A stretch of DNA of 64,000 nucleotides from positions 1 to 64,000 of IMG/VR virus record IMGVR_UViG_3300005529_000005; one strand, 5' to 3'. This stretch comes from a virus. How positions within the stretch are numbered: position 1 is the first letter of the stretch; each line of letters starts with the position of its first letter. A program made the translations under genes and the position numbers. The notes beneath the pieces are model-generated. The model ran no database searches. It worked only from the letters and a program-made list of their open reading frames with translations, and was not told the DNA's origin. Positions 39,010-61,178 of this stretch are shown in pieces.

Positions 39010-39215
39010 CCCGCTCTGTACTGATCGACGAAATGAAGGAAGGCTACCGGGACGGGCTCGACCCCGATTCGCCCGAGCCGTCGGCGAACCGCTCCGCGAG
39101 CTACCGTCACGGCTTCCAGGTCGGCCGCAACGACCGCGCGGGCGTCCCCGGGAAGGGCGCCGCGCGCAACCTCGTCGACGCGACCCGCGCGCTCCAGGAG
39201 GACGAGAAGCAATGA
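39006..39215 (+). CDS. Small unknown protein
   Basis: 69 aa, ATGA overlap at both ends. VLIDEMKEGYRDGLDPDSPE and NRSASYRHGFQVGRNDR: the YRDGxxPDxPEPxxNRSxxYRHGFxxGRxDR plan is common for small phage proteins of unknown function. Confidence 0.5.
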   Translation: MTRSVLIDEMKEGYRDGLDPDSPEPSANRSASYRHGFQVGRNDRAGVPGKGAARNLVDATRALQEDEKQ

Positions 39216-40862: not shown

Positions 40863-40894
40863 CCACCGAAAGTTTTGCAACAGGGAGAAGACCT

Positions 40895-41656
40895 ATGAGA
40901 GTAGCCGACCACGTCCTGAAGGTTTTGAGCGCCAGCGCCTTCGACGGCGACAAGCTCGTCCTGCCGCCCCGCCAGCTGGACCGCGACGTCTATCTAGAGG
41001 TCGCCAAGGTGATCGAGGCCGCCGGCGGCAAGTGGAATCGGAAGGCGAAGGCCCACGTCTTCGACGGCTCCGCCGAGGACGCGATCGAGCCGGTCATGCT
41101 GACGGGAGAGGTCACCAGGGTTCAGCAGGAGTTCGGGTTCTTCGAGAGCACGGCCGCCGTGGTCGCGCGGATCATGGCGCTCGCCCACCGGATCGAGCCG
41201 GGCATGCGCATCCTGGAGCCGTCGGCCGGCCGCGGCGCGATCGCGGTCCCGTTGATGAAGGCGGGGGCGGAGGTCCACACGTGGGAGATCCTGCCGAAGA
41301 ACGCGGAGACGCTGCGCGCGGCGGGCCTGAGGCACGTCCACGTCGGAGACTTCCTCGCGAGCGACCCAGTCCCCGGGTTCTACCACCAGGTCTTGATGAA
41401 CCCGCCGTTCGGCCGGCGCGCCGACGTCGACCACGTCCTCCACGCGGCGCGCAGTCTCAGGAGCGGCGGGACGCTGGTGTCCGTCATGTCGGCCGGCGTG
41501 ACGTTTCGCCAGGACCGGAAGACGCTGTCCTTCCACGATCAGGTCAGGCGCATGTCGCTCGGCGTCCACGTCGAGCCGCTGCCGCCGCTGTCCTTCCGGG
41601 AGTCCGGGACCGACGTGAACGCCGTCCTGATCGCCTTCACGCTGGTGGCGCAGTGA
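40895..41656 (+). CDS. N6-adenine-type DNA methyltransferase (gamma-like)
   Basis: 253 aa, ATG at 40895 after CAACAGGGAGAAGACC. N-terminal GGKWNRKAKAHVF is the DUF4942-type strand found in such enzymes. Motif I ILEPSAGRGAIAVPLM, acidic motif II VHTWEI, motif IV MNPPFGRR (NPPF). Probably N6-adenine methylation. Overlaps the following C5 enzyme start by GTGA. Confidence 0.75.
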   Translation: MRVADHVLKVLSASAFDGDKLVLPPRQLDRDVYLEVAKVIEAAGGKWNRKAKAHVFDGSAEDAIEPVMLTGEVTRVQQEFGFFESTAAVVARIMALAHRIEPGMRILEPSAGRGAIAVPLMKAGAEVHTWEILPKNAETLRAAGLRHVHVGDFLASDPVPGFYHQVLMNPPFGRRADVDHVLHAARSLRSGGTLVSVMSAGVTFRQDRKTLSFHDQVRRMSLGVHVEPLPPLSFRESGTDVNAVLIAFTLVAQ

Positions 41657-43914
41657 TCGGCGCGGCGACGATCCAGACGGAGGTCCGCCACGCGCACCTC
41701 TTCTGCGGGATCGGCGGCGGCGCCGTCGGCTTCAACCGGGGGAGCGCGCGCGTCGGGAACACGGAGGCGCGCTTCGTGTGCGTCGGCGGGATCGACTCGG
41801 ACCCGGCGGCGTGCCGGGACTTCGAGCGCAAGGCGCGCGCGCCGGCGACGTGCCGGGACCTCTTCTCGCTCGACCAGTACCGGGACTTCCACGGGCGCGA
41901 CCCGGCGCCCGGGTGGGAGGAGGCGGGACCCGACGCGCTCCACCGCGCGTTCAGGCTGCGGCCGCACATCGTGTTCCTGAGCGCGCCGTGCAAGGGCTTC
42001 TCCGGCCTGCTGTCCGAGACCTCCTCCAAGACCGCGCGCTATCAGGCCTTGAACGGCCTGACGCTGCGCGGCGTGTGGCTCCTGCTGGAGGCCTACAAGG
42101 ACGACCCGGTCGAGCTGCTCGTCTTCGAGAACGTCCCGAGGATCGCGACGCGCGGGCGCTGGCTGCTCGACCAGATCGTCGCGCTGCTGCGCGCCTACGG
42201 CTACGCGGTCGCGGAGACGACGCACGACTGCGGGGAGCTGGGCGAGCTCGGCCAGAGCCGGAAGCGGTTCCTGCTCGTCGCGCGCCACCAGGAGAAGGTC
42301 CCGCCGTTCCTCTATGAGCCTCCGAAGCATCGGCTGCTCGGCGTGGGCGACGTGCTCGAGCGTCTCCCGATGCCGCTGACGGGTGAGGGCGGAGCGATGC
42401 ACCGGATGCCCGCGCTCCAGTGGAAGACGTGGGTCCGTCTGGCCTTCGTGCGCGCCGGCGCCGACTGGCGCTCGCTGAACGACCTCGCGGTCGAGGGCGG
42501 GTTCCTGAAGGACTTCGGGATCGTCCCGGCCGGCCCGTGGCGAAGTGACGTGCTCGGCGTCATGAACTGGACCGACACGGCGGGGACAGTCACGTCCCGC
42601 TCGGGCCCGACGAACGGCCGCTTCGCGGTCGCGGACCCGCGCGCGGGGGAGCTGGCTAGCAAGGACCGTCAGGCCTACGGCGTGGGCGCGTGGGAAGACC
42701 CGGCCGCGACGGTGACCTCCGCGCGCTCGCCCGGTCAGGGGCGCTTCTCCGTGGCGGACCCGCGCTTCGCGCAGGAGCGGCGCAAGGCCGCCTTCGGCGT
42801 GAGGGGATGGGAGGAGCCCGCCGGCGTCGTCCAGGGCGAGAGCCTGCCGAGCAACGGCTCCTTCGCCGTCGCTGATCCCCGGCCGCCTGAGCCCATCCGT
42901 GGGGGAAAATATCGGGTGACCAGGATGGACGAGCCCGCCGGGACGGTGATCGCGTCCTCGACCACCGGGAACGGCGCCTTCGCGGTCTCCGACCCCCGGG
43001 TGGACGGCCACCCCCGGAGCGTCCAGCTCGGCGTGCGGGAGTGGAGCGAGCCGTCCGGGGTCGTCACGGGTCAGATGGCGGCCGGTCAGGGTCCGAACTC
43101 CGTCGCGGACCCGCGACTCGGCGGGAAGCGGTTCAACACGACCTACAGGATCGTGCGATGGGACGAGACCGCGCCGGCGGTCGCCGGCCCGGGCGGACCA
43201 GGCGGGGGGCTGGCGGTCGCCGACCCGCGCGCGACGCACGGTCCCAACGCTCACCACAACAAGATGCGGGTCGAGCCGTGGACGGACCCGTGTCACGCCG
43301 TCACCGGGACCGACCGCGTCGGGAGCGGCGCGCTGTGCGTCGCCGACCCGCGCTGGAGGGACGGCCGCGACGCCTACCTCTCCGCCGGGCACTACGGCGT
43401 GGTCCCCTGGACGCGGCCGTCGCGCGCCGTCTTCGGCCACGGTCAGCACGACAACGGCTTCAACTCCGTCGCTGACCCGCGACCGGATGGGAAAAACTCG
43501 TCCACCGACGAGTCGTGCGGGATCAACGGCTTGGGAGCCGAGTGGACGAGTCCGCGGGAAGAACCCGAGAAGTCGTCCATCCTCCTGCCCGCCCCCGACG
43601 AGCGCCTCGTGTGCGTCATCTTCGCCCGCGACGGGACGTGGCACCGGCCCTTCACCACGCTGGAGCTGGCGGCTCTGCAGGGCCTCGTCGACCCGGAGGA
43701 GCAGTTCGAGCTCGACGGCCTCTCCGACGCGGCGTGGCGGGAGCGAATCGGCAACTGCGTCCCGCCGCCCTCGGCGACGGCGATCGCGAGCGTGATGGGA
43801 GAGACGCTCCTCCTCGCGTGGGCGGGGGAGACGTTCAAGCTGAGCGCCGCGCCGATCTGGGTCAGGGACGTCGCGGTCGGGCTCTCCGTGCGGCCGCAGG
43901 AGATCGACCAATGA
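41653..43914 (+). CDS. C5-cytosine DNA methyltransferase with eight repeated TRD-like units
   Basis: 753 aa, GTG start at 41653. Motif I HLFCGIGGGAVGF (residues 15-27), catalytic motif IV APCKGFSG with Cys113, motif VI ENVPR with Glu159, motif VIII QSRKR at 201-205, and late motifs FTTLELAALQG and IGNCVPPPSATAIA. Between about residues 300 and 610 lie eight units of the form WxEPAGTVxxxxxxxNGxFAVADPR, 35-45 residues each. Ordinary C5 enzymes (350-450 aa) have one target-recognition domain, so this could have several specificities or a changed target. Confidence 0.85.
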   Translation: MIGAATIQTEVRHAHLFCGIGGGAVGFNRGSARVGNTEARFVCVGGIDSDPAACRDFERKARAPATCRDLFSLDQYRDFHGRDPAPGWEEAGPDALHRAFRLRPHIVFLSAPCKGFSGLLSETSSKTARYQALNGLTLRGVWLLLEAYKDDPVELLVFENVPRIATRGRWLLDQIVALLRAYGYAVAETTHDCGELGELGQSRKRFLLVARHQEKVPPFLYEPPKHRLLGVGDVLERLPMPLTGEGGAMHRMPALQWKTWVRLAFVRAGADWRSLNDLAVEGGFLKDFGIVPAGPWRSDVLGVMNWTDTAGTVTSRSGPTNGRFAVADPRAGELASKDRQAYGVGAWEDPAATVTSARSPGQGRFSVADPRFAQERRKAAFGVRGWEEPAGVVQGESLPSNGSFAVADPRPPEPIRGGKYRVTRMDEPAGTVIASSTTGNGAFAVSDPRVDGHPRSVQLGVREWSEPSGVVTGQMAAGQGPNSVADPRLGGKRFNTTYRIVRWDETAPAVAGPGGPGGGLAVADPRATHGPNAHHNKMRVEPWTDPCHAVTGTDRVGSGALCVADPRWRDGRDAYLSAGHYGVVPWTRPSRAVFGHGQHDNGFNSVADPRPDGKNSSTDESCGINGLGAEWTSPREEPEKSSILLPAPDERLVCVIFARDGTWHRPFTTLELAALQGLVDPEEQFELDGLSDAAWRERIGNCVPPPSATAIASVMGETLLLAWAGETFKLSAAPIWVRDVAVGLSVRPQEIDQ
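42547..43480 (+). repeat. Protein-level tandem repeat (8 units) inside C5 methyltransferase
   Basis: Units end in FAVADPR, FSVADPR, FAVADPR, FAVSDPR, NSVADPR, LAVADPR, LCVADPR and NSVADPR. Each is preceded by a WxxPxxxVxG strand (WTDTAGTVTS, WEDPAATVTS, WEEPAGVVQG, MDEPAGTVIA, WSEPSGVVTG, WDETAPAVAG, WTDPCHAVTG, WTRPSRAVFG). DNA copies have diverged, so the expansion is old. Confidence 0.85.
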
Positions 43915-44117
43915 GCAGACGCTATGCCGTGGTTTTTCCCGACGGCTCGATGTCCGTGATGGCTGAGCCCAAGACCGGTCACGAAGCCGCCTCCTATCGC
44001 GGAATGGCGAAGGAGGAGCGTGACGGCTGGAATGAACGGGAGCGTAAATCGAAGTCGAAGAGCTTCGCCAAGCTGGCGACGGTTGAGGTCTCCGACGTGA
44101 AGGAGCTAAGACGATGA
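43911..44117 (+). CDS. Small unknown protein between methyltransferases
   Basis: 68 aa, ATGA overlap at both ends. RRYAVVFPDGSMSVMAEPKT looks like a small beta unit, followed by a charged helix (KEERDGWNERERKSKSKSF). May be a partner or regulator of the methyltransferases; no direct evidence. Confidence 0.45.
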   Translation: MSRRYAVVFPDGSMSVMAEPKTGHEAASYRGMAKEERDGWNERERKSKSKSFAKLATVEVSDVKELRR

Positions 44118-44929
44118 CTCGCGAGACCGCCCCGAGGTTCTCGGGGATCGGCGGCCACCACAGCCACAAGGCGGGGACCGTCGAGTGGATCACCCCGCCG
44201 GACGTCATAGCGGCGCTCGGGCCCTTCGACCTCGACCCGTGCTCCTCGCTAGCCCAGCCGTGGCCGACCGCGGCGCGCGCCTTCACCCGGACCGACAACG
44301 GCCTGACGCGCGCGTGGGAGGGGCGGGTCTGGCTGAACCCTCCCTACGCGAACGGCGTGATCGAGAAGTGGCTCGCGCGCATGGCGGAGCACGACCGAGG
44401 GACGGCGCTGATCTTCGCGCGGACGGAGACCGACGCCTTCTTCAGGTTCGTGTGGGAGCGCGCGACGGCGCTCCTCTTCATGCGCGGCCGGATCAACTTC
44501 CACTTCGGGGAGCCGTGGCTCGACCAGAAAACCGGTGTCCACTATCAGGTCGGCGATCGCGCCCCCGGGAACGCCGGCGCGCCGACCGTGCTGTGCGCCT
44601 ACGGGGTCGACGACGCGGACGTGCTGGCGGCCTGCCGGATCGACGGCCGCTTCGTCCCGCTCCGCCTCCCGCGCTCAGTGGTCGTGTCGATTTTCTCGAC
44701 CTCAAACGAGGAGGCAAAAAGTGTCGTCACCTGGCGGGAGGCCCTCGCCGGCTTCTTCGCCGAGCGCGAGGGGCCGGTCGTCCTCGAGGACCTCTACCGC
44801 GCCTTCGCGACGCACCCGAAGGCGGCGACGAACCGGAACGTCCAGGCGAAGCTGCGCCAGCAGCTCCAGGAGGGACCCTACCGCCGGGTCGGTCCTGGTC
44901 TTTGGGAGGCGGCTGAACAGGGAGCGTGA
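44114..44929 (+). CDS. Phage N6-adenine methyltransferase (Dam-like, PF05869 type)
   Basis: 271 aa. EWITPPDVIAALGPFDLDPC, then RVWLNPPYANGVIEKWL with catalytic NPPY, then TALIFARTETDAFF and LLFMRGRINF: the standard order for phage Dam-like enzymes. Extra C-terminal domain of about 75 residues (WREALAGFFAEREGPVVLED, LYRAFATHPKAATNRNVQAK) looks like a winged helix and is not usual for the family. Confidence 0.85.
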   Translation: MTRETAPRFSGIGGHHSHKAGTVEWITPPDVIAALGPFDLDPCSSLAQPWPTAARAFTRTDNGLTRAWEGRVWLNPPYANGVIEKWLARMAEHDRGTALIFARTETDAFFRFVWERATALLFMRGRINFHFGEPWLDQKTGVHYQVGDRAPGNAGAPTVLCAYGVDDADVLAACRIDGRFVPLRLPRSVVVSIFSTSNEEAKSVVTWREALAGFFAEREGPVVLEDLYRAFATHPKAATNRNVQAKLRQQLQEGPYRRVGPGLWEAAEQGA

Positions 44930-44931
44930 CC

Positions 44932-45129
44932 ATGGCATGCGACGCAGCGATCCGGCACGTCAGGCGGGTGCTGGACGAGAGGTTCCTGAGCATGAACGCC
45001 AGCGACGTCTACGCCGAGGTCAGGTGGTGGACCCCGGACACGATCGTCGAGGCGCTCGACTCGCTCGTCGCCGCGCGGGCCGCGATCAAGGTCGAGGACC
45101 GCTACCACGTCCTGGGACCGCTCCGGTGA
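44932..45129 (+). CDS. Small winged-helix-like protein
   Basis: 65 aa. ATG at 44932 with GGGAG 8 bases upstream is preferred to GTG at 44926. HVRRVLDERFLSMNASDVYA, VEALDSLVAARAAIKVEDRY have the look of a compact winged helix. GTGA overlap with the next gene. Confidence 0.5.
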   Translation: MACDAAIRHVRRVLDERFLSMNASDVYAEVRWWTPDTIVEALDSLVAARAAIKVEDRYHVLGPLR

Positions 45130-45329
45130 GCGCGGCGCGGGGCGACGAGGTCGTCTACCTCTCCCTGACGGGGGAGACGTGGGACGCCGTGGTCGCGGCG
45201 GTCGGTCCCGAGGACCGCGTCACCCTCCTCGTCGGGAGCTTCGAGCTCGAACTGAGCCGCGTTCCCCTTGACGACACCCGCACTCTTCCTGGATCGTGGT
45301 CCCCGCTCGGACAGGGAGAGGGCGATTGA
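45126..45329 (+). CDS. Small unknown protein
   Basis: 67 aa, GTG at 45126. GDEVVYLSLTGETWDAVVAA and RVTLLVGSFELELSRVPLDD: small beta-rich fold. Overlaps both neighbours by 4 bases. Confidence 0.45.
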   Translation: MSAARGDEVVYLSLTGETWDAVVAAVGPEDRVTLLVGSFELELSRVPLDDTRTLPGSWSPLGQGEGD

Positions 45330-45928
45330 CCAAGAGACCCAAGCCGGCCGCGGCCGTCGACTTCGACGGGAGGGACGTACCCGCGATGCGGCCCGTCATG
45401 ACGCCGCTGACGAAGATCGTCCCGTACCCGCTCAACCCGCGCACGCACCCGCCCGCTCAGGTCGCGCTCCTCGCCGGCATGATGACGAAGCACGGCGTCG
45501 ACCAGCCGATCGTCATGCGCGAGGAGGACGGGTTCATCCTGAAGGGTCACGGGCGGCGCCTCGCGGCGATCGCGGCCGCGATGGACGCCTTCCCGGTGAT
45601 CTGGCGCGCCGGCCTCTCGGAGGAAGAGGCGCGCGCGATGCGCATCGAGGACAACCAGGTCGCGCTGCTCGCCGGTTGGGACCGAGAGTTGATCCACCAG
45701 GAGGTCGTCAGCCTGAAGACGGCGGGCTACGACGTGTCGACGCTCGGCTTCGGCGACGCGCAGCTGGTCCAGTTCACCACGACGCCGGGACCGCCCGCTC
45801 AGTTCCCCGCCTTCGGGGAGAACATCCCCACCGACTTCTGCTGCCCGAAGTGCGGCTACAAGTGGTCGGGGAAGCCGACGCCCGAGTCGGACGGCGACCG
45901 CGCGGCTCCCAAGCGGAAGAAGGCGTGA
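45326..45928 (+). CDS. ParB-like nuclease-domain protein with zinc ribbon
   Basis: 200 aa, TTG start at 45326 overlapping the previous stop, with AGGGAGAGG upstream. KIVPYPLNPRTHPPAQVALL, GVDQPIVMREEDGFILKGHG, RRLAAIAAAM, IEDNQVALLAGWD is the ParB/Spo0J N-domain common in phages beside DNA methyltransferases. C-terminus FCCPKCGYKW is half of a zinc ribbon. Other phage members are fused to methyltransferases; here it is separate and just upstream of one. Confidence 0.75.
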   Translation: MTKRPKPAAAVDFDGRDVPAMRPVMTPLTKIVPYPLNPRTHPPAQVALLAGMMTKHGVDQPIVMREEDGFILKGHGRRLAAIAAAMDAFPVIWRAGLSEEEARAMRIEDNQVALLAGWDRELIHQEVVSLKTAGYDVSTLGFGDAQLVQFTTTPGPPAQFPAFGENIPTDFCCPKCGYKWSGKPTPESDGDRAAPKRKKA

Positions 45929-45929
45929 T

Positions 45930-47597
45930 GTGGCTCTCCTCCTGCGGATCAAGGATCCCCAGTTCTTCCGCAAGCGGAGCACCGGGCAACCGGTGCGCAC
46001 CATCGACCTCGACGCGGAGCCGTGTCCGACGATCATGGCGAACGGGATCAGGAGCGTCACCGTCGGGCGCTACGAGCTGGTCGACGACGGGAGGCCCCCG
46101 GTGATCGACGCGACGAAGCCTCCCTACCGCGTCCCGTCCATGGCGGAGATCGCGGCGGTCGAGCCGAACGGGCTGAAGGTGATCTCCACGTTCGCGGGAT
46201 GCGGCGGCTCCTCGCTCGGCTACCGGATGGCGGGCTTCAAGGTCCTATGGGCGTCGGAGTTCGTCGAGCGCGCGCGGCTCGACTACGAGGCGAACGCCGC
46301 TCAGGGGACGGTCGTCGACGGCCGCGACATCCGCCAGGTCGACCCCCTGGAGGTCCTGAGGACGGTCGGCCTTCAGCCGGGCGAGCTCGACGTGCTCGAT
46401 GGCTCCCCGCCGTGCGCGTCCTTCTCGACCTCCGGCAAGCGCGACAAGAAGTGGGGAACGGTCAGCAAGTACAGCGACCGGGAGCAGCGCACCGACGACC
46501 TCTTCTTCGAGTTCGTTCGGTTCGCGAAGGCGATGCGGCCTCGCGTGTTCGTGGCGGAGAACGTCTCCGGGCTCGTGAAGGGCGTCGCGAAGGGCTACTT
46601 CCTGGAGATCCTGGCCGCGATGAAGAAGGTCGGCTACCGCGTGGAGGCGCGCCTCCTCGACGCTCAGTGGCTCGGCGTCCCGCAGCAGCGGCAGCGGATC
46701 ATCTTCGTCGGCGTGCGCAGGGACCTCGGCCTCGAGCCCGCCTACCCGTCGCCGCTGCCCTACCGATATAGCGTACGCGACGCTCTGCCCTGGATCAGCC
46801 GCGCGATCCACGACACGTCGGGAGACCGAAGCGTCGGGGAAATCACGAACCGGCCGGCGCCGACGATCACGGTGGGCGGCCTGCAGCCCAACGCCTGCCA
46901 CTTCAAGGTCGTCGAGGCGACGGTCTTCCAGAGCGACAAGTACACCCACCTGAAGGACGTGACCGACACGCCCGCGCTGACGATCCGGGCGACGCCCGGC
47001 GAGGGGAAGAAGAAGCCCTTCGTGGTCGAGCGCGTCGTCCAGGGTCCGGAGGTCGACCAGCGCAACGAGGGTCGCGACCTGAGCGACGGCCCCGCGCCGA
47101 CGGTCGTCGCCGGCGACGCTGAGAAGCGCACGCCGCGCCAGTTCGTGGTCGAGCAGTTCGTCGTGGAGCCCGAGACCGACATCAGCGGCCAGGCGATCGG
47201 CAAGGAGTACGACCGCCTGAACCCGGGGCAGGAGTCGGACAAGTACTTCAACCTGAAGCGCGCGCCGATCAGCGAGCCGTGCCAGACGGTGACCGCCTCG
47301 GGCGGGATGAACTCCGGGATCGCGAGCGTGACGCACCCGACGGAGAAGCGGAAGTTCTCGATCGCCGAGCTGCGCCGCGTATGCGGCTTCCCGGACGACT
47401 TCGCGCTCGGCGGGACCTACGCGCAGCAGTGGGAGCGGATGGGGCGCGCGGTCCCGCCGGTGATGATGGCCGCGATCGCGCGCAGCGTCGCCGGCGTGCT
47501 GAAGGAGGCGAAGAATGTGCGGCCTGCTCGGAGCGTTCGATCTCCCCCGGTTCGACGTCGCCGCGCGGCTCGACCTGATAGCGCATCGCGGGCCTGA
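45930..47597 (+). CDS. C5-cytosine DNA methyltransferase 2
   Basis: 555 aa, GTG at 45930. Motif I TFAGCGGSSLGYRMAG, motif IV SPPCASFSTSG with Cys162, motif VI AENVSG, motif VIII QQRQRIIFVG, C-terminal KFSIAELRRVCGFPDDF. The target region has four PxxT(I/V) units (RPAPTITVGG, TPALTIRAT, GPAPTVVAG, EPCQTVTAS), and a fifth-like EPCPTIMANG sits at the N-terminus before motif I. Final 28 residues overlap the asparagine synthetase gene and are Arg-rich. Confidence 0.85.
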   Translation: MALLLRIKDPQFFRKRSTGQPVRTIDLDAEPCPTIMANGIRSVTVGRYELVDDGRPPVIDATKPPYRVPSMAEIAAVEPNGLKVISTFAGCGGSSLGYRMAGFKVLWASEFVERARLDYEANAAQGTVVDGRDIRQVDPLEVLRTVGLQPGELDVLDGSPPCASFSTSGKRDKKWGTVSKYSDREQRTDDLFFEFVRFAKAMRPRVFVAENVSGLVKGVAKGYFLEILAAMKKVGYRVEARLLDAQWLGVPQQRQRIIFVGVRRDLGLEPAYPSPLPYRYSVRDALPWISRAIHDTSGDRSVGEITNRPAPTITVGGLQPNACHFKVVEATVFQSDKYTHLKDVTDTPALTIRATPGEGKKKPFVVERVVQGPEVDQRNEGRDLSDGPAPTVVAGDAEKRTPRQFVVEQFVVEPETDISGQAIGKEYDRLNPGQESDKYFNLKRAPISEPCQTVTASGGMNSGIASVTHPTEKRKFSIAELRRVCGFPDDFALGGTYAQQWERMGRAVPPVMMAAIARSVAGVLKEAKNVRPARSVRSPPVRRRRAARPDSASRA

Positions 47598-48888
47598 CGG
47601 CTCCGGGGTCGCGTCGTCCGGGCCTGCGGTCCACGGCCACGTCCGCCTCGCCCTCCTCGACCTGAGCGAGGCCGGCGCGCAGCCGTTCAGGCGAGGCGAG
47701 GGCCTCCTCTCCTTCAACGGTGAGATTTGGAACTGGCGCGCCGTCCGGGAGGAGCTGGAGCGCGCGGACGAGGTCTTCCGCACGTCGTGCGACACGGAGG
47801 TCCTCGCGGCCGCGCTCGACCGTTGGGGCGTCGGGGAGACGCTCCCGCGCCTCGAGGGCATGTTCGCCTTCGCGTGGTCGAAGGGGCGGACGCACGTCCT
47901 CGCGCGCGACCGCTTCGGGAAGATCCCGCTCCACGTCTCCCGCTTCGCGCGGTCCTTCGTCTGGTCGAGCGAGATGAAGGGGCTCGGGCCCGAGCACCCG
48001 TCGGCGCCGCTCCCGCCCGGGACGATCCTCGATCTGACCACCGGGGAACTGGAGACCTGGTACGCGCTCCCGCGGCGCCACGCGGTCGAGTCCCCCGCGG
48101 CGATCGCGGCTGACCTCCGCGCCGGCGTGGCGGCCCGGATCGTCTCCGACGCGCCGCTGTGCTGCCTGATCTCCGGCGGGCTCGACTCGTCGCTGATCCT
48201 GACGGAGGCGCGCCGGCTGAAGCCAGACGTCGTCGCCTTCACCGCCCGCCACGACGACCGCTCCGCCGACCTGAGGGCCGCGCGGCGCCTCTGCGCCGAG
48301 CTCGACGTGAGCCTGGTCGAGGTCCCCGTGGGCGCGCCGACGGCGGACACGCTCGCGGCGGCCGTCCGCGCGATCGAACTGCCGAGCAAGGCCCAGGTGG
48401 AGATCGCGGCGCTGTGCGTGCCGCTCGCTCGCGCGATCGCCGCGGAGGGCTTCAAGGCCTGCCTCTCCGGGGAGGCGGCGGACGAACTCTTCGGCGGCTA
48501 CGGCTCGATGTGCATCAAGGGGGCGCGCGCGGACGACGAGGCGTGGCGCGCGATCCGCGTCGCTCAGATCGAGAAGATGGCGCGCGGAAACTTCGTGCGG
48601 TGCAACAAGGCGTTCATGGCGGCGGGCGTCGAGTGCCGCCTCCCGTTCATGGAGCGACGGCTCGTGGAGCGCGTGATCAACCTGAGGAAGGTCGACTGCC
48701 CGCCCGGGAAGAAGGCGCTGAAGGAGGCCGCGCGCGGTCTCGTCCCGCGGTGGGTGATCTCCCGCACCAAGCAGACGTTCCAGGGAGGCGCGGGGATGGA
48801 CGAGGCGGCGGCGCGGGCGGTGGCGAACCCGAAGGTCTTCTACGGGGCAGAGTTCCGGTCAGCCTTCGGCGCGGCCGTCGCGGCGTAG
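47515..48888 (+). CDS. Asparagine synthetase (glutamine-hydrolysing), AsnB-like
   Basis: 457 aa. Begins MCGLLGAF with Cys2 as glutaminase nucleophile, then AHRGPDGSG, FNGEIWNW and SCDTEVLAAALDRWG (class II amidotransferase domain, to about residue 190). The synthetase domain has the PP-loop SGGLDSSL at about 220 and SGEAADELFGGYGS. Shorter than cellular AsnB (about 550), the C-terminus being trimmed. In a phage next to DNA-modifying genes it may aminate a small molecule or a base rather than make asparagine; this is inference. Confidence 0.85.
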   Translation: MCGLLGAFDLPRFDVAARLDLIAHRGPDGSGVASSGPAVHGHVRLALLDLSEAGAQPFRRGEGLLSFNGEIWNWRAVREELERADEVFRTSCDTEVLAAALDRWGVGETLPRLEGMFAFAWSKGRTHVLARDRFGKIPLHVSRFARSFVWSSEMKGLGPEHPSAPLPPGTILDLTTGELETWYALPRRHAVESPAAIAADLRAGVAARIVSDAPLCCLISGGLDSSLILTEARRLKPDVVAFTARHDDRSADLRAARRLCAELDVSLVEVPVGAPTADTLAAAVRAIELPSKAQVEIAALCVPLARAIAAEGFKACLSGEAADELFGGYGSMCIKGARADDEAWRAIRVAQIEKMARGNFVRCNKAFMAAGVECRLPFMERRLVERVINLRKVDCPPGKKALKEAARGLVPRWVISRTKQTFQGGAGMDEAAARAVANPKVFYGAEFRSAFGAAVAA

Positions 48889-51428: not shown

Positions 51429-52655
51429 TCAGGCGACCTTGTCGAGGATGTGCTTCGCCTCAAGCTCCTGCTGGAGGCGGTCGTCCGTGTTCAGGACGCC
51501 GCGCGCGTGCGCGGTGATGGCCTGAGCCATGTCCCACGCGGAGCGCGGCGGACGGCCCTCCTCCTTCTCACCCTGCTCGAGGATGGCCTTCGCCTTCGTC
51601 AGCGAGAAGTTGCGGGCCTTCAGGAAGGCGATCGCGCCCTCCTCGTCGTCCGCGACCTTCGCCGCCTTGGCGAGCTTCACGCCGGCGACGAGCTTGTCGG
51701 TCGCGCCGTTCGCGTAGGCGGTCAGCGCGGGGACCGCCTGACGGAGCCAGCGGTCGGGCGCCGCCCGGTTGTGGATGATGCGGACCTCCTCGAAGTTCTC
51801 CACGCCCCAGAGGTTCCGGTTCATGCAGACGCCGCGGAGGAAGAACGCCGCGATCTTCGCGCTGCGCGTCCCGACCTCGCTGTTCTGGCAGAAGAAGCCC
51901 CTGAACATGAGGTCCGGATTCCCGTTCGCCAGCTTGCCGACCTCGATCGGGTTGCGGTCGTCGACCAGGAACATGAACACGTCCCGGTCGGAGGCGTAGA
52001 GCGTGGTGGAGTCGGAGGTCACCGGAGCCTCCGGGTCGTAGAGGCGCGTCGACCAGTCGAGCACGCCCGGGATCTTCCAGCGCATCTCGCCGCGCCCGGT
52101 CCCGGCGACGGCCTGAACCGCCTTCACGATCTCGTAGTCCGGGATGCGGCCGTAGTCGGGGCCGGTCGCCGCGTACAGCTGGTCGGCGCCGCCGTAGAGC
52201 TTGATCTCCTCGACCTCGCGGGCGAAGCGGAGCCGGTAGGCGAGGGCGTCCGAGACGATCTGACTCGGAAGCTCCCGGTAGTGAGCGGCGGGCGCCTTCG
52301 CGAGCGCGCACATCTGACCGAACGCCCAGTGGGTCGGGGCGATCTCGCGCGCCTCGACGCGGTCGCCGTGGTCGATCTTCACGCCGACGGTGAGGCGGTG
52401 AAGGTCGGCCGCCGTCTTCGGCTCCGGAGAGATCAGGTCGAAGGCGTCCGTCTTCGTTCGGGTCTGGAAGCTCCCGTCCCAGAACTTCTTCTTGAAGTCG
52501 TGCAAGTCGGTCAGCGACGTGAACCGCTGGTCCGCCGGGCGCGCCATCCACTGCATCGAGACCTCGCCGTTGTGACCGCCGGTGAACGGGTTCACCTCGT
52601 AAGGTGCCCGGGCCGTGGTCGCGCTGGTCTCGTTCTGCTTCGTGATGTCCAACAT
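51429..52655 (-). CDS. DUF932 family protein
   Basis: 408 aa. TKTDAFDLISPEPKTAADLH near the start, WAFGQMCALAKAPAAHYREL (the typical DUF932 region where a protein is switched off by region), then DRDVFMFLVDDRNPIEVG, FRGFFCQNSEVGTRSAKIAA and FLRGVCMNRNLWGV. The family occurs in phages and plasmids; role unknown. Single-gene transcript flanked by hairpins. Confidence 0.85.
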   Translation of the reverse strand: MLDITKQNETSATTARAPYEVNPFTGGHNGEVSMQWMARPADQRFTSLTDLHDFKKKFWDGSFQTRTKTDAFDLISPEPKTAADLHRLTVGVKIDHGDRVEAREIAPTHWAFGQMCALAKAPAAHYRELPSQIVSDALAYRLRFAREVEEIKLYGGADQLYAATGPDYGRIPDYEIVKAVQAVAGTGRGEMRWKIPGVLDWSTRLYDPEAPVTSDSTTLYASDRDVFMFLVDDRNPIEVGKLANGNPDLMFRGFFCQNSEVGTRSAKIAAFFLRGVCMNRNLWGVENFEEVRIIHNRAAPDRWLRQAVPALTAYANGATDKLVAGVKLAKAAKVADDEEGAIAFLKARNFSLTKAKAILEQGEKEEGRPPRSAWDMAQAITAHARGVLNTDDRLQQELEAKHILDKVA

Positions 52656-54039: not shown

Positions 54040-54261
54040 GCTGGTCAGCCAGGTCTCGCGCGGCGCGGCGGGGGCGATCTCGGCGCGGCCGGCCGGCGTG
54101 ATGACCGTCCGCCGCGGCCGAGGCCCGGGCTTGTCGCCACGGATCATCCCGGCCTTGATCAGCGACTCTACCGCCCGCGCGCGTGGGCCCGCGACGGAGA
54201 GTGGGACGCCCTCCGGGCGCCCCACGTGCTCGAGCAGAACGGCCCTCTGCCTCGGCGTCAC
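53962..54261 (-). CDS. Winged-helix (MarR-like) small regulator
   Basis: 99 aa, GTG at 54259-54261 overlapping the XRE stop. TPRQRAVLLEHVGRPEGVPL, RARAVESLIKAGMIRGDKPG, RRTVITPAGRAEIA is the compact winged-helix plan frequent in rhizobial phages and genomes. Co-transcribed with the XRE gene, so probably a second regulator. Confidence 0.6.
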   Translation of the reverse strand: MTPRQRAVLLEHVGRPEGVPLSVAGPRARAVESLIKAGMIRGDKPGPRPRRTVITPAGRAEIAPAAPRETWLTSSVALVHEPREVPEAEDLDEAAELAL

Positions 54262-54545
54262 GCGGCCCGCCGCTTGGCCTGACGCTTCCCCTCGGTCCTC
54301 CCGACGACGGTCCCGGTCGGGGCGCCGTCGAAGAAGAACGAGACGGGGACCTGGAGCACGCCCGCGATCTGCTGAAGGCGGCTCGCCCCGACGCGGTTCG
54401 CGCCCTTCTCGTACTTCTGGACCTGTTGGAAGGTCAGCCCGAGACGCTCGCCGAGCGTCGTCTGGCTCATGCTGAGCATCATCCTCTTCATGCGGATGCG
54501 TTTGCCGACCCACGTGTCGACCGGCTGCGGTGACCGCTTCGCCAT
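54258..54545 (-). CDS. XRE-family HTH repressor, rhizobial chromosomal type
   Basis: 95 aa. VGKRIRMKRMMLSMSQTTLG, ERLGLTFQQVQKYEKGANRV, GASRLQQIAGVLQVPVSFFF: very close to the chromosomal Rhizobiales XRE group (PraR/PhrR type), with the HTH at about residues 27-50 and a short basic tail. A palindrome lies 20 bases upstream, suggesting autoregulation. Candidate lysis-lysogeny or timing regulator acquired from the host. Confidence 0.85.
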   Translation of the reverse strand: MAKRSPQPVDTWVGKRIRMKRMMLSMSQTTLGERLGLTFQQVQKYEKGANRVGASRLQQIAGVLQVPVSFFFDGAPTGTVVGRTEGKRQAKRRAA

Positions 54546-54564
54546 CGTTCTCTCCTACGTTGTT

Positions 54565-54580
54565 CGGGGAGTATTCCCCG
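54565..54580. promoter_or_regulatory. Palindromic operator in front of XRE gene (site 1)
   Basis: CGGGGAGTATTCCCCG, with T/A flanks extending the arms to TCGGGGA/TCCCCGA. It sits 20 bases upstream of the XRE start codon and fits an autoregulatory site. Confidence 0.6.
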
Positions 54581-54962
54581 AGTGAAACCTATTTCCGGTA
54601 GAAGACGGGTGTCCACTGGCCGTGCGGTATTTTTTTCTCTATCCTCCGAGTCGTCTGGTTCGCCCGGCAGCGGTCTCGACATCAACATCATCGCAGCGCC
54701 TCGGCGCATTGCACTCAGGAGCACCATCGCCGGGCCTTCTGGGCCGCAGGGAGCGGCGCATCGCTCCGACCCTCTTCCGGGTCGTCGCGGCAAACCGAGG
54801 ATGGAGACCTGTAGTCCTCGGGGACCTGAGGTCGGGACGCTCGTGCGCGCGAGCGGAGCGCGGCGACCCGGAAGGGGATCACGAACACCACGCCCGCGAC
54901 AAAGGGCAAGGTCGGCGGCGAGGCGCGCGCTGGAAGAACCGGGCGCGCCTCGCCGGCCAAAA

Positions 54963-54978
54963 TGTTCCACGTGAAACA
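54963..54978. other. Consensus parS centromere site
   Basis: TGTTCCACGTGAAACA matches the bacterial chromosomal parS consensus TGTTNCACGTGAAACA at all defined positions. It is in an intergenic region, 20 bases before the HNH start. ParB of the host would be expected to bind and spread from it. No ParA gene is visible in the window. Confidence 0.8.
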
Positions 54979-54998
54979 TTCCTACCGGAACACCGTAG

Positions 54999-55469
54999 AT
55001 GCTCCTGACCGAGGCCGAACACGGTCTGCCGCGAGCCGGGCGCGTCAGGGCGTGGCTGGCGCAATTCCTCGGCGATCCCTGCGGATGCTGCGGGAGCAAG
55101 ATGCACGCCGACGACGGTTGGAACTCCCCGCGCGCGCCGAGCCGTGATCACCGGATTCCGGTGGCGCGCGGAGGCTTGGACGTCCTGCAGAACATCATCA
55201 TCCTGTGCCGACGCTGCAACGGCGAGAAGGGGATGCTCGACCTGGAGGAGTTCGCGGCGGTGCGCGCGGGCGTGGCCTGTGACCTCTCGGAGCGAATGAA
55301 CACCGAACGCAGCATCATGACCAACTCGAGGAACCCGAAGGCTCTACGTGAGCGTCTCCTCGCTGAGCAGCGCGCCACCTATCTCCTGCGGCCTCCGAAA
55401 CGGCGGCGTCACCGGTTCGGACGTCGCCCCTACCAAAACACAGTTGCGCCCTCCGCCGAGCTCGGATAG
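54999..55469 (+). CDS. HNH endonuclease-like protein
   Basis: 156 aa. CGCCGSKMHADDGWN, RDHRIPVARGGLDVLQNIII, LCRRCNGEKGMLDLEEF: C-x2-C, DH-x-N and C-x2-CN pattern of the HNH fold. Basic C-terminal extension (RPPKRRRHRFGRRPYQ). ATG at 54999 lies just after parS. Unlike the 5443-5979 enzyme it lacks the N-terminal repeats. Could be a homing enzyme or a packaging-associated HNH. Confidence 0.7.
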   Translation: MLLTEAEHGLPRAGRVRAWLAQFLGDPCGCCGSKMHADDGWNSPRAPSRDHRIPVARGGLDVLQNIIILCRRCNGEKGMLDLEEFAAVRAGVACDLSERMNTERSIMTNSRNPKALRERLLAEQRATYLLRPPKRRRHRFGRRPYQNTVAPSAELG

Positions 55470-55533: not shown

Positions 55534-55642
55534 GTGCGTTCGGCGGGCGTGGGACCGACAAAACGGAAGACGCCCCCCGGCGCCGCGGGCACCGGGAGGC
55601 GCTTTCGATACGGCGCGCTGGCCGCTGCGCTACGAGGCCGAA

Positions 55643-55710
55643 GCCCGGCGGGATTCGAACCCGCGACCTCCGTTGTGCGGCCGCGCTACCAGGCTGCGCT
55701 ACCCCCGGGC
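55643..55710 (-). pseudogene. Degenerate tRNA-like sequence 1
   Basis: Minus strand has a good D-arm (GCGC-AGCCTGGTA-GCGC preceded by TA) and a perfect T-arm (GCGGG-TTCGAAT-CCCGC), joined by AGGTC. The anticodon arm is only 12 bases (3-bp CCG/CGG stem) instead of 17 and the acceptor pairs only five bases (GCCCG/CGGGC). Not a normal tRNA. Confidence 0.55.
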
Positions 55711-55715
55711 CTGAG

Positions 55716-55790
55716 CCCGGTGGGTCGGATTCGAACCGACGACCTGCCGCTGGTCGTCCCTATAGCCGACCTACGCCTCGCCAGGCCAGA
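55716..55790 (-). pseudogene. Degenerate tRNA-like sequence 2
   Basis: Minus strand T-arm GTCGG-TTCGAAT-CCGAC (55724-55740) is perfect and is again preceded by AGGTC. 5' parts do not pair into a normal D, anticodon or acceptor stem. Overlaps the 3' end of the leftward gene at 55771. Confidence 0.45.
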
Positions 55791-56566: not shown

Positions 56567-57133
56567 ATGCCCGACCAGACCGACAACCCCCCCGAAGGAT
56601 CAGCGGACCGCCCCGCCAAGGCGCGCAACCGCGGCGGCCGGCCGCCCGGCGCGAAGAACAAGTCGACGCTGGAGCGGGAGCGGCGCGAGCAGCTGGAGCG
56701 GGAGCGGCTGGCGCTCCTCGACGGCGCGAAGGCTGACCAGGCGGAGCAGGCCCTCGTGGCGGCCCAGGCGCGCGGGGTGAAGCTGGCGAAGGACGTGATC
56801 CAGGACTTCATGCGGCTCTTCGCGGGCATGGCGGCGACGTACCAGCCGCTCCCGCCCGGTCAGGAGATTCCGCCCGGGAAGATCGTGGACGAGGGGAAGT
56901 TCGAGAAGTACGCCGCGCTCGCGGTCGACGCGGCGGCGCGGCTCGCGCCCTTCGAGAGCCCGCGCTACTCGGCGGTGCTGGTCGGCTCCTCCGTGGTCAA
57001 CCGGGTGGAGGTCACGGGCGGGATGCCGGACGACTTCGCGGCGCCCGCGGGCGTGCCGACGCACGCGCTGCCGCCAGGGACGATCATCGAGGCGGAGGAG
57101 GACTACGTGCCTCCGGCGGCGGCGACGGGCTGA
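56567..57133 (+). CDS. Terminase small subunit-like protein
   Basis: 188 aa, ATG at 56567. N-terminal RGGRPPGAKNKSTLERER is the basic start seen in many phage small terminase or DUF5681-like proteins; helical core (DQAEQALVAAQARGVKLAKD) and acidic C-terminus (IIEAEEDYVPP). One gene separates it from TerL. It would recognise the packaging site. Assignment mainly by context. Confidence 0.6.
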   Translation: MPDQTDNPPEGSADRPAKARNRGGRPPGAKNKSTLERERREQLERERLALLDGAKADQAEQALVAAQARGVKLAKDVIQDFMRLFAGMAATYQPLPPGQEIPPGKIVDEGKFEKYAALAVDAAARLAPFESPRYSAVLVGSSVVNRVEVTGGMPDDFAAPAGVPTHALPPGTIIEAEEDYVPPAAATG

Positions 57134-57146
57134 GGGAGGGTTCAGG

Positions 57147-57500
57147 ATGGCCGGGAACGATTGGCCGCCGGTGTCGAGCGCGTGGGCTCACCCCGAGGGC
57201 ACGCGCAAGTACGGGTCGACAGGCCAGCTCTGGGAGGTCCGGAACGGTCAGTGGTGGCGCGTCGACGACGGGCGGCTGAGGGCCGTGGACCCGCCGAAGG
57301 ACCGGGTCGGCGCCGTGGTCGAGTACGTCCACCGCGACACGACGAGCGGGGAGTTCTGGCTCGACTTCCGCGTGGACGGTCAGCCCTACGCCTCCGTCGG
57401 CCCCTTCGCGACGGAGGCCGAGCGTCAGCGCGCGCACGAAGACATGATGGGGATGATGCGCTCCCTCGGGGCCAAGGACGTTCCGGTGCTCCCGCAGTGA
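57147..57500 (+). CDS. Unknown protein between terminase subunits
   Basis: 117 aa. TRKYGSTGQLWEVRNGQWWR, VDDGRLRAVDP and TSGEFWLDFRVDGQPYASVG show a Trp-rich beta fold. GTGA overlap with TerL. Role in packaging unknown. Confidence 0.5.
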   Translation: MAGNDWPPVSSAWAHPEGTRKYGSTGQLWEVRNGQWWRVDDGRLRAVDPPKDRVGAVVEYVHRDTTSGEFWLDFRVDGQPYASVGPFATEAERQRAHEDMMGMMRSLGAKDVPVLPQ

Positions 57501-58843
57501 ACGCGCCCGCGCTCCTCCAGCCGAACTTCCAGACGGCCCAGGTCCAGCTCCCCGTCTTCCACCGGGCGCAGGCCAAGCTGCGCCACGTGATGAAGCACAA
57601 CCGCCTGGTCGTGGCGCGGTGCGGGCGGCGGTGGGGGAAGAACGTCTTCGGCGAATCGGTCGCGTCCGACGACGCCACCCACGGCCGCCTGATCGGCTGG
57701 TTCGCGCCCGAGAACAAGCGTCTCCGCGCGTCGTACGACGTTGTCAGGAACCTCCTCGACCCGATCCGGAAGAGGTCCTCCAAGACGGACGGCTTCATCG
57801 AGACCATCACGGGCGGGAGCGTCGAGTTCTGGTCGCTCGAGGACCCCGACGCGGGCCGCTCGCGCAAGTACCACCGCATCATCGTCGACGAGGGCGCCTT
57901 CACGAAGCCCGGGACGATCGACTGGTGGACGAAGGCGGCGCGCCCGACGCTGGTCGACTATCGCGGCCGCGCCTTGGTCATGTCGAACACGAAGGGGATC
58001 GACCCGGAGAACTACCTCTACGCGATCTGCAACGACCCGAAGTACGGCTTCGTCCAGTTTCACGCGCCGAGCCGATCGAACCCGACGCTGCCGCCCGACG
58101 AGGTCGAGGGCTTCGAGCGCGACTACGAGCCGCTGGTCTACCAGCAGGAGTTCCTGGCGGAGTTCGTCGACTGGTCGGGCGCGGCCTTCTTCTCGCTGAA
58201 CAAGATGCTCGTCCACGGTCAGCCCGTTGAGCTGCCCGCCCGTTGCGAGGCGGTCTTCGCCGTGATCGACTCGGCCACGAAGACGGGCAAGAAGAACGAC
58301 GGGACGGGCGTCGTCTGGTACGCGCTGATCCGCAACCACCTTTCCCCGGTGACGGCCGACGGCAGGATCCTCCCGCGCTACTCGCTCGTCGTGCTGGACT
58401 GGGACCTGACCCAGATCGAGGGCGCGCTCCTCGAGACCTGGCTCCCGGGCGTGATCGACATCGGGCGCGACTACGCGATGAAGTGCCGCGCCGCGCGCGG
58501 GTTCGTCGGGGCCTTCATCGAGGACAAATCCTCGGGCATGATCCTGCTGCAGCAGGCGGCGCGGCGCGGCCTGGCGGCGCACCCGATCGAGTCGAAGCTG
58601 ACCGACCTCGGGAAGGACGAGCGCGCGATCTCCGTCTCCGGCTACGTCTACCGCGAGCTCGTCAAGCTCGCGCGGCCCGCCTTCGAGAAGGTCACGAACT
58701 ACAAGGGCACGCCGCGCAACCACCTGCGCGGCCAGGTCGTCGGCTTCCGCGTCGGCGACAAGGACGCCACGCGCGAGGATGACCTCCTCGACTGCTTCTG
58801 CTACGGTGTCGCGATCGCGCTCGGCAACGCGGAGGGGTTCTGA
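57497..58843 (+). CDS. Terminase large subunit
   Basis: 448 aa, GTG start at 57497 overlapping the previous stop. ATPase: VVARCGRRWGKN (Walker A), KYHRIIVDEGAF (Walker B with catalytic Glu), MSNTKG (motif III/coupling). Nuclease domain: VFAVIDSATKTGKKNDGT, GAFIEDKSSGM, then ATREDDLLDCFCYGVA with acidic residues for metals. It drives headful or sequence-specific packaging at the portal. Confidence 0.9.
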   Translation: MNAPALLQPNFQTAQVQLPVFHRAQAKLRHVMKHNRLVVARCGRRWGKNVFGESVASDDATHGRLIGWFAPENKRLRASYDVVRNLLDPIRKRSSKTDGFIETITGGSVEFWSLEDPDAGRSRKYHRIIVDEGAFTKPGTIDWWTKAARPTLVDYRGRALVMSNTKGIDPENYLYAICNDPKYGFVQFHAPSRSNPTLPPDEVEGFERDYEPLVYQQEFLAEFVDWSGAAFFSLNKMLVHGQPVELPARCEAVFAVIDSATKTGKKNDGTGVVWYALIRNHLSPVTADGRILPRYSLVVLDWDLTQIEGALLETWLPGVIDIGRDYAMKCRAARGFVGAFIEDKSSGMILLQQAARRGLAAHPIESKLTDLGKDERAISVSGYVYRELVKLARPAFEKVTNYKGTPRNHLRGQVVGFRVGDKDATREDDLLDCFCYGVAIALGNAEGF

Positions 58844-59489: not shown

Positions 59490-61178
59490 ATGGGAGCGGT
59501 CGTCGTCCAGGGGAGCCAGCTCGGGAACGCGCTGAGCGAGTTGCTCTGCGCTCCGGACATCGTGCCGGGCGACCAACCCTCCTACGAGCTTTGCAAGATC
59601 CTGTGGCTCTACCACCCCCTCGGCGCGAAGATGGTCGAGGGGCCGATCACCATGGCCCAGTCTCAGCCGCGGGAGATCAGCATCGCCGACGGCCCGGAGG
59701 ACCTCTGCCGCGAGGCCTTCGTCGACCAGTGGGAGAAGGACCGGGCGGACGAGGTCATCTACAACGTGGCCTCCGTGGCGCGCGCCTACGGGATCGGCTC
59801 GCTCGCGCTGCAGTGCGAGGAGGTCCCCGCCGACCAGGCCATCGACCCGGCGAAGCTCCCCGACCTCAGCCTCTCGTTCCCGGTCTTCGACCCGCTGAAC
59901 ACGGCGGGCTCGCTCGTGCTCAACCAGGACCCCAACAGCATCGACTTCATGAAGGTCCAGGGGATCGCGGTCGCGGGGCGCCCGTACCACCGCTCGCGGA
60001 CCGTGACGATCATGAACGAGCGGCCGGTCTACATCGCCTACACGTCGTCGGCGTTCGGCTTCGTGGGCCGCTCCGTCTTCCAGCGGTCGCTCTTCCCGCT
60101 CAAGTCCTTCATCCAGACGATGCAGACCGACGACCTGGTCTCGAAGAAGGCGGGCGTCTTCATCGCCAAGCTCTCGACCGCCGGCGCGATCATCGACGGC
60201 ATCATGCAGTCGATGGCGGTGGTGAAGCGGCTCTTCGTCCAGCAGTCGACGAACGGGAACGTGATCTCGATCGGGAAGGACGAGGAGATCGAGACGCTCA
60301 ACATGCAGAACATCGACAAGGCGATGACGACCGCGCGCCAGAACATCCTGGAGAACGTCGCGACGGGGTCGGGCATGCCCGCGATCATCCTGAAACAGGA
60401 GACGTTCGCCGAGGGCTTCGGGGAGGGGACCGAGGACGCCAAGATGGTGGCGGGCTTCGTCTCCGCCTACCGCCGGCAGGTCAACCCGCTCTACGCTTTC
60501 ATGGACCCGATCGTTCAGCGGCGGGCGTGGAACAAGGACTTCTACGCGCGGGTGCAGAACCTCTTCAGCCAGTACCGGGGGGTGGACTACGAGGTCGCCT
60601 TCCGCCGGTGGTCGAACTCCTTCAAGGCGCTGTGGCCGAACTACATCACGGAGCCGGACAGCGAGAAGGTCAAGACCGACAAGGTGAAGCTGGAGGCGAT
60701 CATCTCCATCGTGGAGGTCTTCGCGCCGCTCCTAGACCCGGAGAACAAAGCGAAGCTGGTCGAGGCGGCCTACGCGAACATCAACTCGAACGAGTTCATG
60801 TTCCAGGAGCCCTTCGAGATCGACGTCGACGACCTGAGGGAGTACGTCCCGCCGCAGCCGATGATGGGCCAGGGCGGGGAGGAGGGCGGAGAGCCCGCCC
60901 CGGAGACGCTGAAGGCGGACAGCGACGGCGCGGCCGTGAGGCGCCTGATGCGGCGCTTCTCGGACGGGGACCTCGAGAACCTGATCAGCGTGGTCGCGGA
61001 GAACCCCGAGTGGCTCGCGAAGGTGCGGGGCGACGCGAAGCTGCAACTCGTTGACGGGACAAAGAAGAACGCCGCAACAGGCGCAACAAACGGCGCAACA
61101 AAACCGTCCCGGGCCGCCTACTTCCGTGACTATCGTCGGCGCACGAGCGCGTCCCCTCGGGCGGCGGGGCGCGGGTGA
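59490..61178 (+). CDS. Portal protein (DUF1073 type)
   Basis: 562 aa. SYELCKILWLYHPLGAKMVE, VFDPLNTAGSLVLNQDPNS, GFVGRSVFQRSLFPLKSFIQ, LIDEMQSMAVVKRLFVQ-type stretch, and GMPAIILKQETFAEGFGEGT then PIVQRRAWNKDFYARVQ match the DUF1073 portal family. Dodecameric ring at the packaging vertex. The final part contains NAATGATNGATKPS encoded by three CGCAACA repeats. Confidence 0.85.
   Translation: MGAVVVQGSQLGNALSELLCAPDIVPGDQPSYELCKILWLYHPLGAKMVEGPITMAQSQPREISIADGPEDLCREAFVDQWEKDRADEVIYNVASVARAYGIGSLALQCEEVPADQAIDPAKLPDLSLSFPVFDPLNTAGSLVLNQDPNSIDFMKVQGIAVAGRPYHRSRTVTIMNERPVYIAYTSSAFGFVGRSVFQRSLFPLKSFIQTMQTDDLVSKKAGVFIAKLSTAGAIIDGIMQSMAVVKRLFVQQSTNGNVISIGKDEEIETLNMQNIDKAMTTARQNILENVATGSGMPAIILKQETFAEGFGEGTEDAKMVAGFVSAYRRQVNPLYAFMDPIVQRRAWNKDFYARVQNLFSQYRGVDYEVAFRRWSNSFKALWPNYITEPDSEKVKTDKVKLEAIISIVEVFAPLLDPENKAKLVEAAYANINSNEFMFQEPFEIDVDDLREYVPPQPMMGQGGEEGGEPAPETLKADSDGAAVRRLMRRFSDGDLENLISVVAENPEWLAKVRGDAKLQLVDGTKKNAATGATNGATKPSRAAYFRDYRRRTSASPRAAGRG

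Follow-up and report, generated by a model that had tools for sequence, protein, structure and literature searches.

The 64,000-nucleotide stretch of viral DNA analysed here (hereafter the window) covers positions 1 to 64,000 of IMG/VR record IMGVR_UViG_3300005529_000005, a 74,093-base virus record whose genes include those for terminase, portal, head morphogenesis, and the hub and wedge of a baseplate. Positions 54963-54978 carry TGTTCCACGTGAAACA, a chromosome-type parS in the C..A mixed half-site form. The features relevant to this site are listed below, with the strand given where one applies.

36920-38269, + strand: protein with a ParB-like N-terminal domain (phrog_1033), no ParB HTH
about 45386-45928, + strand: 180-aa ParB_N-type protein (phrog_620 / weak ParB_N), adjoining a C5 methyltransferase
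54258-54545, - strand: HTH_3 transcriptional regulator, likely repressor (family match)
54565-54580: CGGGGAGTATTCCCCG, a near-perfect palindrome lying some 20 bp before the start of the HTH_3 regulator
54633-54745, + strand: conserved non-coding element (blocks 54657-54681 and 54726-54745), common to records G069/G070, upstream of parS
54916-54928 and 54943-54955: arms of a 13-bp perfect inverted repeat that ends 7 bp before parS
54963-54978: chromosome-type parS TGTTCCACGTGAAACA (consensus match, chance estimate)
54999-55469, + strand: HNH endonuclease frame (from the ORF list; PF01844, 1.3e-8; missing from the gene-caller list)
56567-57133, + strand: gene without a family match, conserved just 5' of TerL in relatives
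57497-58843, + strand: TerL, terminase large subunit (weak Terminase_6N; annotated terminases among its homologues)
59490-61178, + strand: portal protein (phrog_146, 1.6e-45)

The packaging module opens with TerL, 2.5 kb downstream of parS, and the gene at 56567-57133 is a small-terminase candidate by position only. The CGGGGAGTATTCCCCG palindrome may be an auto-operator of the HTH_3 regulator. ARAGORN identified no tRNA near parS. Downstream of the HNH frame and ahead of the packaging genes, the minus strand has two tandem tRNA-mimic stretches (55607-55675 and 55679-55748) that resemble YrlA (Y RNA-like); they score 37.8 and 31.6 bits, short of the gathering cut-off of 69.

Several other features were observed elsewhere in the window. 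A perfect AT-rich palindrome, AAATCTGATCAGATTT (31617-31632), stands just 5' of a YqaJ-type exonuclease gene in this GC-rich genome and is likely an operator. Positions 38359-47597 hold a cluster of DNA methyltransferase genes (N6/N4, two C5-type, and Dam) together with the ParB_N protein, and an asparagine-synthase-like gene occupies 47515-48888. A phrog_1362 / DUF932 gene (51429-52655, minus strand) has homologues of 45-47% identity in L006:1587-2780 and L194:2769-4070, both of which are parS-bearing contigs of the second TerL group described below.

The site matches the parS consensus at all defined positions, as an earlier note on this DNA had claimed: it has no mismatches to TGTTNCACGTGNAACA and one mismatch to TGTTTCACGTGAAACA. 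That note also placed the site within a 450-base gene-free region. The gap is real (54546-54998, 453 bp), but parS is found at its downstream edge rather than mid-gap, with 20 bp separating it from the HNH ATG; the 'gene-free' label moreover depends on the gene caller, because other mechanical ORFs in the ORF list span the gap. The site is the only parS-like match in the window at up to three mismatches (shuffled controls gave a mean of 0.04 matches, with any match in 3 of 100 shuffles), and both an exact scan and a scan allowing two mismatches returned the same single site from the whole record. Given the base composition, one window should hold 3.4e-5 exact matches to TGTTNCACGTGNAACA (the NN pattern), and 74 kb should hold 1.0e-5 matches to the Y/R form, TGTTYCACGTGRAACA.

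Frequency of parS in viral contigs

We identified at least 120 viral-contig stretches that contain an exact TGTTTCACGTGAAACA, compared with 7 and 11 matches for two composition-matched control palindromes. A pattern two bases longer, CA followed by TGTTTCACGTGAAACA, also occurs in at least 120 stretches, and that flank is present in only 11 of 120 sampled exact-site loci; by extrapolation, the total is thus at least about 1,300 stretches. Some chromosome-like contigs with parS clusters are present (L162, with 12 sites, and L033, L089, L103, and L121), and the raw enrichment is inflated because IMG/VR includes such pieces. These tests show real parS sites, not the phage status of every contig.

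A degenerate scan listed 120 loci, 105 of which have a single site. In 98 of these 105, position 5 is Y and position 12 is R, a combination expected in 25% if the two positions were free. The single-site loci comprise 50 T..A forms, 25 C..G forms, 23 mixed forms like that of the window, and 7 others. The mixed half-site form therefore ranks third in frequency among them.

Sites occur both within and between genes. The 178 pattern loci contain 216 Y/R sites (7 loci have none), 124 of them inside open frames (60 codons or longer) and 92 in the intervals between frames. The in-frame sites most often encode V-S/P-R-E/G-T (78 sites) or FHVK/E (39 sites). By eye, many of the V-S/P-R-E/G-T sites fall in low-complexity linkers, such as QPEKVSRETSIPVPV in G002. 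This placement suggests that the DNA, rather than the protein, is under selection, with the frames being mechanical ones. Low-complexity, in-frame sites encoding VSRET or VPRGT were also seen in L004, L007, L085, L106, L107, L142, L147, L196, and others, and L085 and L142 each contain the in-frame site twice.

Conservation of parS in two terminase groups

Twenty parS loci with similar flanks form a group, and the members tested place parS just 5' of TerL (phrog_38 in L194 and L168). The TerLs of L168 and three more contigs are 83-85% identical to that of L194. We fetched TerL relatives with an alignment of five TerLs from parS-bearing contigs and kept the best 80 of 591 confirmed loci. Because the seeds came from parS-bearing contigs, this test shows how well that lineage conserves parS and not how common the site is in phages at large.

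Among these best 80 of 591, parS lies within 300 bp upstream of TerL in 50 of the 77 loci with at least 150 bp of upstream sequence, and four control palindromes gave 0 of 77 each; the remaining 27 loci have no parS in those 300 bp. In 12 of the 77 loci, a TerL stretch is identical to that of a motif-found contig; once these are dropped, 38 of 65 have the site. Clustering TerL nucleotide sequences gives 34 of 56 clusters with parS at 95% identity and 28 of 39 at 90%. The sites within 300 bp stand 41-137 bp upstream of the TerL match, apart from one at 264 bp. An exact Y/R site occurs anywhere in 58 of all 80 loci, with outliers about 1.06 kb upstream (six sites), 327 bp upstream (one), and downstream of TerL (one).

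Upstream of TerL, 14 of the 80 loci (L246, L247, L252-L255, L261, L264-L267, L270, L271, and L280) carry a T..A site and a C..G site at a spacing of 23-24 bp. The order of the two forms is exchanged in L266, L267, and L270, as would be expected under selection by a protein that reads palindromes, for example ParB. When 420 composition-matched 14-bp palindromes were ranked, parS came first both in this group (57 loci) and in the window's own clade (4 loci, versus 2 for the runner-up).

The earlier note held that phages normally lack host-type parS. The abundance of the exact site over its controls and its presence upstream of TerL in most tested loci of this group contradict that view. Named phages with a TerL related to that of this group are the Pelagibacter phages HTVC027P (63%) and HTVC023P (54%), 023Pt_psg01 (63%), and DSL-LC04 (59%). 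HTVC027P has a one-mismatch parS inside a frame, 4 kb upstream of TerL. No parS was found in the whole records of HTVC023P, 023Pt_psg01, DSL-LC04, and three further named phages, so that one of seven is positive. HTVC027P is described as obligately lytic and without lysogeny genes (PMC12753301).

In the window's own clade, 14 of the first 15 TerL relatives lack parS and none has it at the window's syntenic place; the exception, G002, has its site elsewhere, within the gene for a head-protein homologue of 940 aa. A TerL-alignment scan (best 80 loci kept, 971 kb; L130 was left out of alignment A2 since its stretch contains a stop codon) identified parS at up to two mismatches in 5 loci, compared with 0 to 3 loci for each of nine control patterns. 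At up to one mismatch, the comparison is three loci versus none for each of the nine controls. L331 (TerL 54%) has an exact parS, and L298 has one mismatch inside the core.

We also searched 34 long records whole and found sites in five: G065 (two sites), G066, G068, G069, and G070. The other 29 lack parS, among them all the long ones whose TerL is no more than 67% identical to the window's. The 14-bp core GTTTCACGTGAAAC, which in the window has the C..A form (C at position 5), is kept in G065, G066, G068, G069, G070, and G002. All six fetched records that reach both 40 kb and 68% TerL identity to the window have it (the window, G002, G065, G066, G068, and G069), although this line was set after the result was seen and the six represent about five lineages, G066 and G068 being one. 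Three close-group fragments (G067, G071, and G072) contain no parS.

Most of these sites stand at non-homologous places. The presence of parS is thus kept in the window clade while its position turns over. The earlier note had proposed looking for the 16-mer at the same place in related phages, and GTTTCACGTGAAAC is indeed syntenic in G069 and G070, which are identical across the 3 kb compared, count as one independent lineage, and were reached only by the deeper TerL-alignment scan. In G065, G066, G068, and G002, the core is kept at other places.

The G069/G070 locus resembles that of the window in several respects. An HTH_3 homologue (59% identity over residues 3-83) flanks parS there on the side where the window has its regulator, and the two are oriented alike. 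Between regulator and parS, the window and G069/G070 share the non-coding element TCTCTA...GGTTCGCCC.GCA...GCGGTCTCGACA...ACCATCGCCGGGC.TTCTGGGCC. Both blocks of this element occur, with substitutions at most in the free positions, in L299, L300 (8233-8357), L368, and L369, where block B has one inserted base; elsewhere in the loci, only matches with 3-4 edits were found (L088, L135, and L321; L334). The element (54633-54745 in the window) may serve in packaging, as a cos/pac site, or may form a structured RNA. Next comes parS, as TGTTCCACGTGAAACA in the window and as GGTTTCACGTGAAACG in G069/G070, where both of the two mismatches fall outside the core. A small-terminase candidate and then TerL follow in G069/G070, 0.9 kb past parS, and no HNH homologue was found at that locus. 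In the window, G069/G070, and L331, parS lies 1.5-2.5 kb upstream of TerL.

Other observations were made in the same loci. In L124:13616-16438, a head-morphogenesis homologue is split by an in-frame intein-like insert (starting CFPGDSRIPF and ending IIAHNC), and head-morphogenesis homology is split near the same residue, 240-242, in L299 and L311. A search for close named phage relatives of the window yielded none: TerL identities reach at most 49%, and DNA matches to named phages cover at most 5% of the query, among the matches listed. A TerL search for prophage copies in GTDB genomes, within reach of close relatives only, gave 16 pattern matches, none of which was confirmed.

The window site is a 16-bp palindrome of the TGTTNCACGTGNAACA type, and parS is kept by selection in related replicons, both in the window clade and in the second TerL group. 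A chance palindrome is an explanation that we rejected. Windows were read for oddities, and a selected coincidence is conceivable. Such a coincidence is nonetheless extremely improbable, as about 1e-5 sites are expected per genome from base composition, yet the core occurs in five long close relatives besides the window.

Partition and integration genes

We examined partition gene families in 51 records of at least 21 kb, namely the window, G002, 15 members of the second TerL group, HTVC027P, and 33 other pattern loci; 48 of these carry a Y/R or one-mismatch site. ParA (Pfam accession PF13614) was found in none of the 51, the window record included, and in 14 of 14 control genomes. The ParB HTH domain (Pfam accession PF17762) had no match above the cut-off in the 51 records, none in the window record, and one weak match below the cut-off in G055, with 9 of 14 controls positive. 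ParB_N (Pfam accession PF02195) was identified in 6 records, three above the cut-off, with the window and G002 among the weak ones. Many of these records are fragments, so that the absence of a gene from one of them is no proof.

These results bear out two statements of the earlier note: the window encodes two ParB-domain proteins (the phrog_1033 and phrog_620 proteins listed above), and no ParA is visible. A complete ParABS system was thus not found in the window record, which lacks a recognised ParA and a parS-binding ParB HTH, and a phage-encoded ParABS was rejected for the set as a whole. The C-terminal part of the 36920-38269 protein weakly matches DNA-binding chains of response regulators. 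The 45386-45928 protein has a distant match to the Spo0J N-domain and no HTH match. There is a small chance that such ParB-like-domain proteins provide a phage-encoded parS binder.

A related possibility is that the site is the operator of a phage protein (the HTH regulator, the small terminase, or a ParB-like protein) and merely resembles parS. The location between a repressor-like gene and the packaging genes would suit an operator, and ParB-like domains are encoded. Against this, the chromosomal consensus, including its Y/R freedom, recurs beside an unrelated TerL and inside other genes, parS occurs also in records without a ParB_N match (45 of 51), and the window record has no ParB HTH. 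We regard an operator of this kind as very unlikely.

No tyrosine integrase (Pfam accession PF00589) was recognised in 38 records, which comprise 32 with a site, the window record included, five siteless window-clade records (G075, G077, G007, G091, and G092), and one with a non-Y/R site (L036). A serine recombinase (Pfam accession PF00239) was found in one of the 38 (G059) and not in the window record. By the presence of an integrase, the window phage is not recognisable as an integrating temperate phage.

The earlier note had suggested that an extrachromosomal prophage might hitch on the host ParABS. Under this explanation, the phage would persist as a plasmid-like episome inherited through host ParABS. 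A parS site alone stabilises plasmids in Bacillus subtilis, and in the window an HTH regulator adjoins parS and no integrase was found. Conversely, a scan of 51 of the roughly 100 predicted proteins turned up no recognisable gene for plasmid replication, and HTVC027P, reported to lack lysogeny genes, has a one-mismatch site. The occurrence of this site in a lytic phage, together with the lack of integrases, makes lysogen maintenance unlikely as a general explanation. It is possible for the window's own phage, and we consider a plasmid-like lysogen an unlikely reading overall.

Possible uses of an orphan parS site

ParB-parS is the near-universal bacterial centromere. Several observations suggest that the parS at 54963-54978 is probably real, under selection, and an orphan, and that it brings host ParB onto the phage genome. 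This reading rests on sequence: the match to the chromosomal consensus, the finding of neither a phage ParA nor a parS-binding ParB, and the presence of the core in related and unrelated contigs. What use the phage would make of the bound ParB is less certain than the recruitment itself.

During infection, host chromosomal ParB would load at the phage parS as a CTP clamp and slide into the flanking kilobases, forming a host-built partition complex on the phage genome. Host ParA, pole anchors, or SMC could then act on this complex to position, hold, or spread the replicating phage DNA, and the phage would need no parAB genes of its own. Clamp loading at parS, sliding, silencing, and condensation by ParB are described in PMC7333895 and PMC12704722. 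The turnover of site position favours a genome-wide role, such as positioning, over the control of one promoter. Among the possible uses, we tentatively favour positioning, holding, or spreading of phage DNA through host ParA, pole anchors, or SMC.

Because parS is close to the terminase gene in two groups, silencing of late genes is the strongest competing reading. Host ParB spreading from parS would hold the terminase and structural genes off until replicating phage DNA dilutes it and the late genes come on. The promoters next to parS3 and parS4 are reportedly repressed in Pseudomonas aeruginosa (PMC5521831), and plasmid ParB silences genes for kilobases around parS (PMC7333895). In favour of this reading are also the short distances to TerL in the second TerL group (41-137 bp, with one at 264 bp) and those of 1.5-2.5 kb in the window, G069/G070, and L331. 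Nevertheless, the G002 site is inside a head-protein gene and those of G065, G066, and G068 are far from TerL, in or beside other frames; these scattered sites fit a position-tolerant function better than the control of one promoter. Further, a scan limited to sigma-70-like promoters and to terminators found neither at the window parS. We consider such a silencer rather doubtful, if conceivable.

Alternatively, the many replicated phage copies could load ParB clamps as decoys, drawing ParB away from the host origin so that host segregation or the cell cycle stalls. At high copy number, parS should compete for ParB, as is known for plasmids. Phages in which no tyrosine integrase was recognised carry orphan sites, and HTVC027P, reportedly obligately lytic, has a one-mismatch site; both observations would be consistent with a decoy. 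A decoy would presumably benefit from arrays of sites, whereas the window and its relatives carry one or two per record, and we judge this use decidedly unlikely.

The arrangement differs from known systems. Phage-plasmids such as P1 encode ParA and ParB with private parS sequences. Phage-plasmids, and mycobacteriophages with their own ParABS cassettes, likewise carry a centromere on phage DNA; unlike theirs, the window parS is of the host type and no par genes were found. With the bacterial chromosomal ParABS centromere (parS near oriC), the site shares the same 16-bp palindrome and the same variation at positions 5 and 12 (consensus as quoted in PMC10197239). Unlike the chromosomal system, it is borne by a virus, stands upstream of terminase genes in two groups, usually numbers one or two copies, and belongs to a replicon in which neither parA nor an HTH-bearing parB was found. 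ParB-CTPase-fold phage proteins have been surveyed (PMC12704722), and the window likewise encodes two ParB-like proteins, one beside a methyltransferase. In its accessible portions, that survey covers proteins rather than parS sites in phage DNA, and the window proteins have no parS-reading HTH. Both parS as a site type and phage-plasmids with their own ParABS are thus already known. We found no report of an orphan host-type parS conserved in phages, a weak negative, as preprints and most subscription papers were outside the search.

Judged from sequence comparison, it is somewhat likely that widespread tailed phages, lytic ones included, carry an orphan centromere so that host ParB coats the viral genome, with the site placed upstream of terminase or hidden as a VSRET- or VPRGT-coding stretch in the linkers of long genes. 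If true, a host-type parS without par genes would be a minimal viral means to use or disturb chromosome segregation, in which 16 bp of DNA hijack the host's segregation machine. Such phages would be predicted to infect only hosts with a chromosomal ParB, and parS could double as a sequence tag for host prediction.
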